Source: Gammaproteobacteria bacterium
GTDB lineage: Bacteria; Pseudomonadota; Gammaproteobacteria; Steroidobacterales; GCA-2729495
Length of the DNA stretch: 40,597 nt
Direction: 5' to 3'
Assembly (NCBI GenBank): GCA_027293165.1
Contig: JAPUGB010000035.1
Span: forward strand, 1-40,597
Shown here: positions 34,393 to 40,414 of the stretch, one piece after another
Position numbering within the stretch: position 1 is the stretch's first letter
Layout: every line of letters starts with the position of its first letter
The notes under the pieces: model-generated
Database searches by the model: none
Seen by the model: only the letters and a program-made list of their open reading frames with translations
What the model was told of the DNA's origin: nothing
Made by a program: the position numbers and the translations under genes

Positions 34393-35355
34393 ATGTCAAA
34401 GGCTGATCAAAAGCGTGTGCCGCGGGGCGGCTTGACTCGCAGAGCTGTACTGGCCGGCGTGGGGGGTGCAGCCGGCCTGGCGGCTGGGCTGCAGGCCGGC
34501 ACGAGCAAGGCCGAGACGGCCATGGCGCTGGATCTCGATGATCCGGAAGACAACCTGAAAGCGTTGATCAAACTCCAGGCTGATTTATCCGGCAAAGATG
34601 TCATAGGCGGATTTCCGGGAACAGTATGGTCCTGGGTCCCAGGGGTCGGCAACACGCTATTGTTCAAGAGCTACGGGATCGGTGCGAGCCACGTTGAGCA
34701 AGTCGATGACGGCTGGCGTTTCTACCACCGTGAGTTGCTGTATTACATGGACCCGGTCAGTGGCGAAGTACTTGCCGAATGGGATAATCCGTTTACCGGG
34801 CAGCGGGTTGAGGTCATGCATATTCTCAATGACCCGGTCAATCGCTTTTACACCACCAAAGGTGGTCCGTTTACGTTTCCACGCCCATACGAAATTTACG
34901 GCGACGATCTTGTATTCCGGGTCAGCTTTTTCAAGTTCCAGGAGTCATTGATGCCAAGGGCCGACTACCCGGTGCATTCCGCTCACGACATGTACCAGTC
35001 AGCCGAACTGTGGGGCATAAGCGGTCGTCTTAGCGAAGTCCTGGATCCGGCTGTGACGTCCGCGTCGTGCGTCACTTCATGGGGCCGCATGTCGCAGTGG
35101 TTACCATTCATGGAGATGGGTGACCGGCCCGGATCGATGGTTTTTCACAGCCACGCTTACAAATTGCTCGGCGGGGCGGCTGAACTGCCTGCTGATATTC
35201 TTGCGTACACCGAAAAGCACCATCCGAAGTACCTGGAGTCGCCCAAAACCTGGGTCGGCTTGTCCGACAACCGGAGCCAGTACTCGGAAACCAAGAAGGA
35301 GATCGACCGGCGCACCGATGGATCCGTACCGGCAGGGTCGGTATTCGAGGTATAG
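34393..35355 (+). CDS. DUF1838-family exported protein
   Basis: Probable secreted protein of 320 residues of the DUF1838 family, no known biochemical role. The N-terminus LTRRAVLAGVGGAAG is a Tat-type signal (Arg16-Arg17) and cleavage is likely after TSKAE or nearby. The mature part is rich in aromatic residues and Gly, with FPGTVWSWVPGVGN and WLPFMEMGDRPGSMVFH. A ribosome site AGGAGCAGGG precedes the ATG, and it lies 27 bases after the EF-G-like gene, so an operon is likely. A cofactor-binding fold is not visible. The 3' end faces the next gene, with an inverted repeat between them. Confidence 0.85.
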   Translation: MSKADQKRVPRGGLTRRAVLAGVGGAAGLAAGLQAGTSKAETAMALDLDDPEDNLKALIKLQADLSGKDVIGGFPGTVWSWVPGVGNTLLFKSYGIGASHVEQVDDGWRFYHRELLYYMDPVSGEVLAEWDNPFTGQRVEVMHILNDPVNRFYTTKGGPFTFPRPYEIYGDDLVFRVSFFKFQESLMPRADYPVHSAHDMYQSAELWGISGRLSEVLDPAVTSASCVTSWGRMSQWLPFMEMGDRPGSMVFHSHAYKLLGGAAELPADILAYTEKHHPKYLESPKTWVGLSDNRSQYSETKKEIDRRTDGSVPAGSVFEV

Positions 35356-37762: not shown

Positions 37763-38812
37763 CTACTGCTCGATGAATGCAACAACGCGACGAGCCAGTT
37801 CCTCCGGTTGATCTTCAACGCTATAAAAGCTCGCGTTCTCGATTCCGGCATGCGGCTGCCCTCGTGTTCCGGGTATATGTTGCAGCAGCTTCTCTGGGCC
37901 CATGGCGGTGTTATTGAATGACGCGCTGAATAAGGTCAAGGTCGGCTTGTTCCAATCGGCGAGTTTTTCCCAGGCTGCCAGGTTTGCCGGGCGGGCGGGA
38001 TCATCGGGTTCGATCGGCAGAATCATCGGGAAGCGTCGCGGGCCGGTCTTATAGCTCTCATCCGGATACGGCGCATCGTAGGCAGCGATGATTTCCGGCT
38101 GCAGCTTAACGACTACACCGTCGTTGACCATGTCACCCTGCGGGAACACGGGCCGGGACAGCATTTCGGCGCGCCATTTCCTGAACCACTTGTGGCCCGC
38201 AGACGGGTCGCCGGTTGGCAGGTGTGTGTTCAGCAGTACCAGCCGGCTGAAATATTGCGGCTCCTCGGCGGCCAGCCGCAACCCGAAAAAGCCTCCCCAG
38301 TCGAGCAGAAAACCGGTGGCGTCTTCGATGCCCAGCTGTTGCATGAATGACTTCAGCCAGTCGATATGCCGTTGGAACGAATAGTCTTCATCGGCAGTCA
38401 GTTTGTCCGATCGCCCAAACCCGATGTAGTCCGGCGCGACGACCCGGTAACCGGCATCAACCAACATCGGGATCATATTGCGATACAGGTACACCCAGCT
38501 GCCCTGTGTTGGCGTCAGCAGAATGATCGGGGCCGCCGGGTTGCCTTCGTCGATGTAATGCATGCGCAACGGGCCGAAGCGTTCATCGGGCACCTCGATG
38601 TAATGGGGCTCGTAGTCGTAGCCTGGCAGGTTCTCGAACCGTTCTTCTGGTGTGCGTTTTATCTCCATGACCTGCTCCCGCCCTGAATCACAGCCGCTGG
38701 TTAAACAGGCAATCAATACGACCGTGAGCCCAGCCGCCTGTAATTGCCCGAAAGAATGCGCGCGGAAACTGGACTTGCCGTTTCCCAGATGTCGCGTGCC
38801 GTCGGTTCGCAT
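37763..38812 (-). CDS. Haloalkane dehalogenase-like protein lacking catalytic acid and His
   Basis: Alpha/beta hydrolase closely resembling HLD-I haloalkane dehalogenases (KRTPEERFENLPGYDYEPHY, then PDYIGFGRSDK and AAYDAPYPDESYK). The nucleophile Asp171 and following Trp are kept (LLDWGG). However the HGEPTW oxyanion motif is TPTQGSW, the acid-bearing FSDxDPIT is FSASFNNTA (residues 295-303), and the base-bearing AGHF is ASFY (328-330, Phe where His belongs). Dehalogenase activity by the known route is therefore unlikely. The 349-residue frame opens with 48 extra residues including a hydrophobic stretch and SGC at 39-41, perhaps a lipobox, while an internal ATG at 38668 has GGGAG eight bases upstream and would give a 301-residue cytosolic protein of usual length. 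Both starts deserve testing. Confidence 0.85.
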   Translation of the reverse strand: MRTDGTRHLGNGKSSFRAHSFGQLQAAGLTVVLIACLTSGCDSGREQVMEIKRTPEERFENLPGYDYEPHYIEVPDERFGPLRMHYIDEGNPAAPIILLTPTQGSWVYLYRNMIPMLVDAGYRVVAPDYIGFGRSDKLTADEDYSFQRHIDWLKSFMQQLGIEDATGFLLDWGGFFGLRLAAEEPQYFSRLVLLNTHLPTGDPSAGHKWFRKWRAEMLSRPVFPQGDMVNDGVVVKLQPEIIAAYDAPYPDESYKTGPRRFPMILPIEPDDPARPANLAAWEKLADWNKPTLTLFSASFNNTAMGPEKLLQHIPGTRGQPHAGIENASFYSVEDQPEELARRVVAFIEQ

Positions 38813-38910: not shown

Positions 38911-39789
38911 CTAGTTGGACCCCCGCCCGCCCAGCGGTGGCAGTGACCCAATATAGACCGCGATGGCTCTGCGGTCCTCCGGGGTCAGGTGGCTGGTGCT
39001 GTCCTCGATGACGTCGGACATGCTGTCGCCGGCGAAGTCACCGTCCGGCAGCATGCCGAATTCCAGCAAATAATCGAGATCTCTTTTGGACCAGTCACCG
39101 ATGCCGTGTTCCCGATTGGGCGTAATATTTGGCGCGCTGTCACCGTATGGTCCCGGACCGCCGCCGGCCAGTTGCTGATCGTAGCGCGATGCTCCGAGGA
39201 GGTTGCGGGGCGTATGGCATTCGCCACAGTGAGCCAGATGACGCACCAGGTAAGCGCCCCGGTTCCACTCGTCGGTGCGCTGTGCGTCGGGTTCGTACCG
39301 CCCACTCCGGAAAAACAAAGCTTTCCACGGGCGGATCAGCGCGCGTTCCGACAGGTACCATGGCAGGAGGTGTTCGCGGTTTGGCTGATGGACCGGCGCC
39401 AGGCTGAACAGATAGGCCTTGATGGCTAGCAGATCCTCGGCGCTCAAGCCGGTGTAAGACGTGTACGGAAAGGCCGGGTAATAGTCCTCCTGTCCCGGGC
39501 TCAAGCCGTCCCAAAACGCGGTGAGGAACTCGCGGTCGGTCCAGTTGCCGATTCCTGTCTCCGCGTTCGGCGTGATATTCGGCGGGTAAAAAGTGCCGAA
39601 AGGCGTTTCCAGTTCGCGGCCACCCGCAAACGGCGGGATTTTGTCGGAGGGGTCGGAATGACAAGTGATGCACCCGGCCGCATGGACCAGGTATTCTCCG
39701 CGCGCAAGCTGTTCCTCAGTCGTGTCTGCCGAAACCGGTGACGCTGCCAACAGACCAGCCAGCAGCACAAATCCACTGCATCGAAACAT
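38911..39789 (-). CDS. Diheme c-type cytochrome
   Basis: Periplasmic electron carrier of 292 residues with a signal peptide (LLAGLLAASPVSA). Two haem-binding motifs, CITCH (Cys40 to His44) and CGECH (Cys188 to His192), mark two cytochrome c domains, typical of the cytochrome subunits of membrane dehydrogenases such as alcohol or gluconate dehydrogenase. The inter-domain part carries YYPAFPYTSYTGLSAEDLLAIKAYLFSL. It starts five bases after the cytochrome c' gene stops, so they form one operon. No dehydrogenase partner is next to it. Confidence 0.93.
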   Translation of the reverse strand: MFRCSGFVLLAGLLAASPVSADTTEEQLARGEYLVHAAGCITCHSDPSDKIPPFAGGRELETPFGTFYPPNITPNAETGIGNWTDREFLTAFWDGLSPGQEDYYPAFPYTSYTGLSAEDLLAIKAYLFSLAPVHQPNREHLLPWYLSERALIRPWKALFFRSGRYEPDAQRTDEWNRGAYLVRHLAHCGECHTPRNLLGASRYDQQLAGGGPGPYGDSAPNITPNREHGIGDWSKRDLDYLLEFGMLPDGDFAGDSMSDVIEDSTSHLTPEDRRAIAVYIGSLPPLGGRGSN

Positions 39790-39794
39790 CGCGG

Positions 39795-40259
39795 CTAGTG
39801 ATGATCGTCGTCCTCACGGAAGCGATCATGGCAGCCCTTGCAGGCTTCGCCGAGCGCCTTGAAGCCTTCCGCAATGGTTTTCTGGTCGCCAGTGGCGACA
39901 GCTGCCGCAAAGCCGGCAGTCGCGGTTTCGGCATTCTGCACTGCTTCGCTGAATTGATCCGGCTCTTCCCATATCAGCGGCAGTGCATGGGAGTCGTCCA
40001 CGCTCGATCCGGGTGGGAACAACGTACCGATTTCGGCACCAACTGCAGCAATTGCATTAGCGTGCGTCCCCATCTGATCCCGCTGATCGACCTTCCCAGC
40101 GAAAAGCAGAAAGAACGCGTGCGCATGGCTGCCCAGCGATTCCATGACGGAGTGCCGGTAATCGTATGCGTCCTCAGGCGTGGTCTCCGCAAATGCCGGG
40201 GTTGCGATCGCGTAGCTCGTGATCAGAACCAGTGCGAGGGGTACGGTTTTCAGCTGCAT
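39795..40259 (-). CDS. Cytochrome c'
   Basis: Periplasmic cytochrome c' of 154 residues, a four-helix haem protein that typically binds NO or CO and takes part in nitrosative defence. Signal peptide (LALVLITSYAIATPAFA). The single haem motif CKGCH (Cys140 to His144) is near the C-terminus as the family requires, followed by the tail RFREDDDHH. ATG at 40259 is set by GGAGA nine bases upstream; a longer frame to 40400 has no support. Operon with the diheme cytochrome. Divergent from the TetR-type gene. Confidence 0.9.
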   Translation of the reverse strand: MQLKTVPLALVLITSYAIATPAFAETTPEDAYDYRHSVMESLGSHAHAFFLLFAGKVDQRDQMGTHANAIAAVGAEIGTLFPPGSSVDDSHALPLIWEEPDQFSEAVQNAETATAGFAAAVATGDQKTIAEGFKALGEACKGCHDRFREDDDHH

Positions 40260-40385
40260 CGGTAGATCTCCATTATTGATATTCGGGTCAGGACGCAAGA
40301 TAGCAGGCTTCAGTTTTGCTTGTAACTCTATGGAACGTTCGCAGCATCGATCCTTGCCCGGGTCAAGACTCGCTGGAAAAAAAGT

Positions 40386-40399
40386 TGACCATTTGGTCA
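40386..40399. promoter_or_regulatory. Inverted repeat, probable TetR operator
   Basis: TGACCATTTGGTCA has 6-bp perfect arms around two bases. It overlaps TTGACC (40385-40390), which resembles a -35 element for the TetR gene, and lies 127 bases before the cytochrome c' start, so it could control both. A T-rich tract on the minus strand (A8 at 40376-40383 on plus) lies next to it. Confidence 0.5.
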
Positions 40400-40414
40400 C
40401 ATTTATCCGTTAGG

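Follow-up and report, generated by a model that had tools for sequence, protein, structure and literature searches.

A minus-strand open reading frame (ORF) in the window, by which we mean the whole 40,597-nucleotide stretch of contig JAPUGB010000035.1 analysed here, encodes a descendant of the haloalkane dehalogenases of subfamily I (HLD-I) that is not itself a haloalkane dehalogenase, since two defining HLD features, the catalytic base and the catalytic acid, are missing. Few alpha/beta hydrolases have been studied as thoroughly as the HLDs, whose catalytic pentad is treated as defining. Judging from the phylogeny, the protein belongs to an old, monophyletic clade with a single origin among active HLD-I haloalkane dehalogenases. 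As a leading, not dominant, hypothesis (probability about 0.38), we propose that members of this clade may arrest at a covalent ester on the nucleophilic Asp, as in HaloTag (DhaA H272F). Our literature search, with most subscription papers outside its scope, returned no report of a natural HLD clade that is devoid of base and acid and keeps the nucleophile and leaving-group site.

The reading frame, its fold and its active site

The ORF is open over 349 codons. It contains the following features.

37763..38812, minus strand: longest ORF as given; codons 1-48 are a basic/hydrophobic stretch ending at a lipobox-like LTSGC
37763..38668, minus strand: His-less HLD-I-like protein, likely true coding sequence from Met49 (301 aa plus stop)
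38675..38679, minus strand: Shine-Dalgarno-like GGGAG, 6 nt before the Met49 ATG
38495..38512, minus strand: oxyanion-loop motif PTQGSW (intact HLD-I: HGEPSW), with Gln103 invariant in the His-less clade
38297..38302, minus strand: nucleophile Asp171 and predicted halide-binding Trp172 (LLDWGG); Asp/Trp in 39/39 readable His-less members
38174..38176, minus strand: Trp213, counterpart of the second halide-binding Trp (DhlA W175); W in 37/40, F in 3/40
37916..37918, minus strand: Phe299 (FSASFNN), catalytic-acid position (DhlA D260)
37826..37828, minus strand: Phe329 (ASFY), catalytic-base position (DhlA H289)

Met49 (38668) is a more likely coding start than Met1 (38812). The latter is without a Shine-Dalgarno sequence, codons 1-48 show a weaker coding base pattern, and the closest relatives (L017, L018) begin just ahead of RTPD/RTPE, with an upstream stop in L017. 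Against Met49 stands the resulting gap of 245 nt to the upstream gene, which is longer than in relatives, where these two genes are -1 to 85 nt apart. The lipoprotein-like N-terminus of the full ORF (basic/hydrophobic leader, LTSGC) is accordingly given as doubtful.

From residue 49 the product matches HLD-I structures end to end (DpcA 6f9o, E 6e-93; DmrA 4mj3, E 3e-90), DhlA being more distant than these two among the solved relatives. It scores 353 bits against NCBIfam NF002043 'haloalkane dehalogenase' (cut-off 265), a model that would name such proteins dehalogenases though they are not expected to turn over hydrolytically in the normal way. An AlphaFold2 model built from the window sequence and the locus sequences (mean pLDDT 95.9, pTM 0.93) predicts the HLD-I fold with its helical cap, and a Foldseek comparison gives it a TM-score of 0.96 to DpcA (6f9o) and DmrA, with HaloTag structures next at about 0.77-0.80. 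Fold and length are thus common to the ORF product and HLD-I proteins (DpcA 6f9o, DmrA 4mj3, DccA 5esr, DppA 2xt0, DhlA), as are the nucleophilic Asp, two halide-binding Trp residues and the N-terminal RTP.xRF signature, at about 48% identity to DpcA and DmrA. The clade differs from them by His to Phe at the base, Asp to Phe/Leu/Ile at the acid, Gln to Phe/Leu before the nucleophile and HGEP to xxQG/A.

Alignment to DhlA equates Asp171 with D124, Trp172 with W125, Trp213 with W175, Gln103 with E56, Phe299 with the acid D260 and Phe329 with the base H289; HGEP of intact HLD-I corresponds to PTQG at residues 101-104. By this alignment the nucleophile and the Trp pair are present, and the base His and acid Asp are both replaced. 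The preliminary description of this DNA had claimed an intact frame, an HLD-I chain with Asp171 in LDWGG, and replaced acid and base motifs (FSASFNN, ASFY), all of which is confirmed.

Distribution, origin and selection of the His-less clade

The homologue survey yielded 40 sequences with Phe at column 329, namely the ORF product and 39 relatives that share its base change, while the 69 other HLD-I relatives retrieved have His. The His-less sequences come from two families of different classes, the window's own (f1) and f348. In f1, a search of 40 genomes at E<=1e-30 gave 33 matches, spread over 24 genomes; each match that was motif-checked is His-less, and no intact HLD-I was seen among these. 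By identity the f1 sequences fall into groups A (59-72%), B (43-48%) and C (about 43%). Surveys above the family level are samples, with motifs read in a subset of the matching loci. Within these, the motif-read HLD-I relatives from the rest of the order (396 genomes) and the phylum (398 genomes) have the base His and acid Asp, and in the class of G964 the His-less form, at 48-63% identity, occurs only in f348 among the matches examined. The pattern DWGG[YF]FG was found in 2 of 369 genomes of the window's class, both from f1, although so strict a pattern misses group C and other variants. A plasmid search gave no match above 50.5% identity. No intact HLD-I paralogue was found in the window's own genome (G000), where the other matches are partial and at most 39% identical, one of them (L002) with DYG at the nucleophile.

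One of the f348 genomes apparently corresponds to the Alphaproteobacteria MAG OFTM367. Its copy sits at two contig ends (L006, L011), and both loci overlap inside the gene, so that it is split by assembly and not frameshifted. This homologue (L011) has a clearer twin-arginine/lipobox-like leader (RRTVST...LSGC), and group B members have an N-terminal membrane anchor; from these sequence features, export or membrane anchoring is likely in some clade members.

Several variants were seen in passing. A further f348 subgroup (L146, L147, L154) pairs DWGAFFGL with Phe in place of His; its acid loop is shortened, and PH is followed by another His (PHHTYE/PHHIYD). In genus g344 of the window's class, three HLD-I relatives (L138, L143 and L144) carry the mirror change, with the nucleophile Asp replaced by Asn (VCQNWGS) and the base His and acid Asp kept. 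A Halieaceae HLD-I relative (L015:6001-7026) combines an intact triad with an insertion of ~35 residues at the cap start.

The residue pattern separates the clade sharply from other relatives. The base column has Phe in 40/40 members versus His in 69/69 others; the acid column, Asp in 69/69 intact relatives, has F/L/I/T/M in 36/40 (35/39 besides the ORF product), while the four members of group C keep D/E. As this Phe recurs in 39 other sequences, 35 of which have lost the acid too, the changes are neither chance nor sequencing artefacts. Gln170, directly before the nucleophile and invariant in 69/69 intact relatives, is replaced by Phe/Leu. Gln103 is found in 39/39 members, followed by a non-Pro residue, and with Phe176 (Met in L152), Trp209 and Phe329 it makes up a near-invariant new set besides Asp171. 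The preliminary description had also listed a change from HGEPTW to TPTQGSW. This is present in the ORF but does not stand as a defining change: HG is lost (PT/PS/ST/AT) only within group A, in 8 of its 18 readable sequences, all other clade members having HGQ, and the sequences thus mark it as a feature of the window's subclade.

In a tree built without the motif columns, all 40 His-less sequences lie on one side of a single branch (SH-aLRT 96; 99 for the same branch in a first tree set of 83 rows), which requires one His/Phe change. The change from CAY to TTY takes two base changes, and both TTT and TTC are used at Phe329 in each of groups A, B and C. Most closely related pairs of clade members have a dN/dS of 0.08-0.14 (extremes 0.04 and 0.26), against 0.08-0.15 in intact relatives. 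An earlier suggestion of a kept pseudo-enzyme or a new chemistry agrees well with such an old monophyletic clade, with purifying selection and with an invariant Asp/Trp/Phe site; as to local decay, none of the closest homologues has the triad, and the relatives have open frames where premature stops might have been met. We rejected a recent pseudogene or a sequencing or assembly error, to which 40 sequences in two families, low dN/dS and open frames leave a practically negligible chance.

In group A, conservation is higher in pocket columns than elsewhere (0.77 vs 0.62, p=0.013) and lower than in the pocket columns of intact relatives (0.94), so the pocket is kept and reshaped. This bears on the idea of a catalytically dead structural or regulatory partner for which the pocket would be irrelevant. 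Such a role would fit a protein in which two catalytic residues and another motif are gone, and also the lower pocket conservation relative to intact relatives; however, an invariant nucleophile and halide Trp, and a group-A pocket still conserved above average, render it improbable.

Possible fate of the reaction in the reshaped site

In HLDs, SN2 attack by the Asp gives an alkyl-enzyme ester, which His and the acid cleave by activating water (PMC6100074). Since there is no general base, normal hydrolytic turnover would not be expected, and from the sequences we infer that the clade has lost it. In the scheme we favour, the base His was exchanged for an invariant Phe, and outside group C the acid Asp gave way to a residue that is hydrophobic or at least not acidic. 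The ligand, an electrophile such as an alkyl halide, would enter the capped pocket and be attacked by Asp171 in SN2 fashion, with Trp172, Trp213 and Gln103 surrounding the leaving group. The alkyl-Asp ester would then persist, no general base being there to activate water, and the protein, working stoichiometrically, would scavenge its ligand or sense it covalently, much like a HaloTag of natural origin. Ester formation, ligand and cellular role are conjectural, and only tentatively do we suggest a natural, evolutionarily stable family of self-alkylating proteins, each used once to scavenge an electrophile from the environment or to sense it covalently.

A paper on DhlA by Pries et al. reportedly, going by its title, belongs beside the engineered base mutants that serve as precedents. 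In DhaA H272F the ester is trapped on D106 (PMC13376172), and in HaloTag7 the H272N replacement abolishes ester hydrolysis (PMC8388125); given HLD chemistry and these two cases, a His-less, Asp-bearing HLD would be arrested if reactive at all. In chemical terms, the stop at the covalent ester that the preliminary description gave as an example would be the most direct prediction. The clade resembles HaloTag (DhaA H272F/H272N, HLD-II) in keeping the nucleophilic Asp and replacing the catalytic His, with Phe also in the first HaloTag version. It differs in being natural and known from sequence, in its HLD-I scaffold (about 25% identity) and in the additional loss of the acid in most members. Its proteins offer ready-made HLD-I scaffolds for self-labelling tags, and a test case for the loss of a hydrolase's second half-reaction.

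Besides these engineered precedents, arrest at the ester is favoured by the constancy of Asp171-Trp172 and Phe329 set against the His and acid Asp of all 69 outside sequences, by the single His-to-Phe change on the tree, by dN/dS as low as in intact relatives with synonymous TTT/TTC turnover at the Phe, and by the match of the model (pLDDT 95.9) to HLD-I with its conserved group-A pocket. Against it count the lower pocket conservation than in intact relatives, the replacement of Gln170 and the loss of the oxyanion HG in the window's subclade. Moreover, any residue other than His suffices to block hydrolysis, whereas a strict Phe suggests a specific demand such as stacking or another chemistry. 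It is mainly this invariance of Phe, unneeded for arrest alone, that keeps us from grading the covalent ester higher.

The strict Phe leads to an alternative scenario, a new non-hydrolytic enzyme centred on Asp171 (elimination, isomerisation, decarboxylation or a ligand-templated reaction) in which Phe329 would stack against the substrate. The near-invariant Gln103, Phe176, Trp209 and Phe329 accord with it, and precedents exist: plant carboxylesterase-like proteins became [4+2] cyclases (PMC10873640), and OleB, an HLD-III-like beta-lactone decarboxylase, is likewise HLD-derived with a job other than dehalogenation, yet belongs to subfamily III and has a conserved catalytic pentad in the cited alignment (PMC10503415). 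On the other hand, column mapping to DhlA found no conserved alternative acid or base; the conserved His columns 85, 149 and 321 match no DhlA active-site position, so that no substitute base was identified. We consider such an enzyme unlikely.

The emptied site might instead belong to a non-covalent receptor or binding protein that holds a small molecule through Asp171 and Gln103, with the cap closing to signal or carry. Base and acid are lost while the fold and part of the pocket are kept, and the hydrophobic residues at both positions suit a ligand pocket. The gibberellin receptor GID1 offers a parallel, as this plant alpha/beta-hydrolase protein lost the active-site His of its hydrolase ancestor and kept the nucleophile (PMC3531792); it differs in descending from hormone-sensitive lipases with a Ser and in having a proven receptor role. 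A strict Asp and Trp and a nearly strict second halide Trp nevertheless exceed what a binder needs, and on our analysis a receptor is possible but rather unlikely. The present data do not separate the covalent ester, the receptor and the non-hydrolytic enzyme, the latter two being close rivals.

Genomic neighbourhood

Genes beside the ORF, and recurrent neighbours at other group-A loci, are as follows.

38911..39789, minus strand: diheme c-type cytochrome, upstream neighbour on the same strand (Pfam Cytochrom_C)
39795..40400, minus strand: cytochrome c', upstream on the same strand (Pfam Cytochrom_C_2), common to four other group-A loci
L095:7885-8862: membrane-anchored alpha/beta hydrolase of no named family, recurrent neighbour
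L095:10878-11975: secreted CbiX-like protein without Pfam hit, recurrent neighbour
L098:9620-11110: ferrochelatase-like protein with weak Pfam hit, recurrent neighbour

Of the 16 group-A loci with flanks, 8 have a diheme cytochrome c as the adjacent upstream gene in the same orientation, at gaps of -1 to 245 nt; it often overlaps the His-less gene or lies within 40 nt of it. Next in line recur cytochrome c' and the membrane-anchored alpha/beta hydrolase, which has a Ser nucleophile elbow and a His; farther out come FtsX/LolD-type ABC genes and a ferrochelatase/CbiX-like protein, named by resemblance (weak or no Pfam hit). From gene order, the cytochromes and recurrent neighbours look like a possible operon. 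That cytochromes and a second alpha/beta hydrolase are conserved neighbours speaks for the non-hydrolytic enzyme, but the neighbourhood varies by genus and was not seen in group B. Among the group-A loci with flanks, no recurring partner or signalling gene adjoins the His-less gene, which tells against a receptor. The neighbourhood does not name the ligand, and for arrest at the ester the cytochrome operon gives no pointer to haloalkanes. Elsewhere in the window, at 34393-35355 on the plus strand, lies a gene for a DUF1838 protein with a signal-like N-terminus, and L095 has a related gene ~4 kb away from its His-less HLD.
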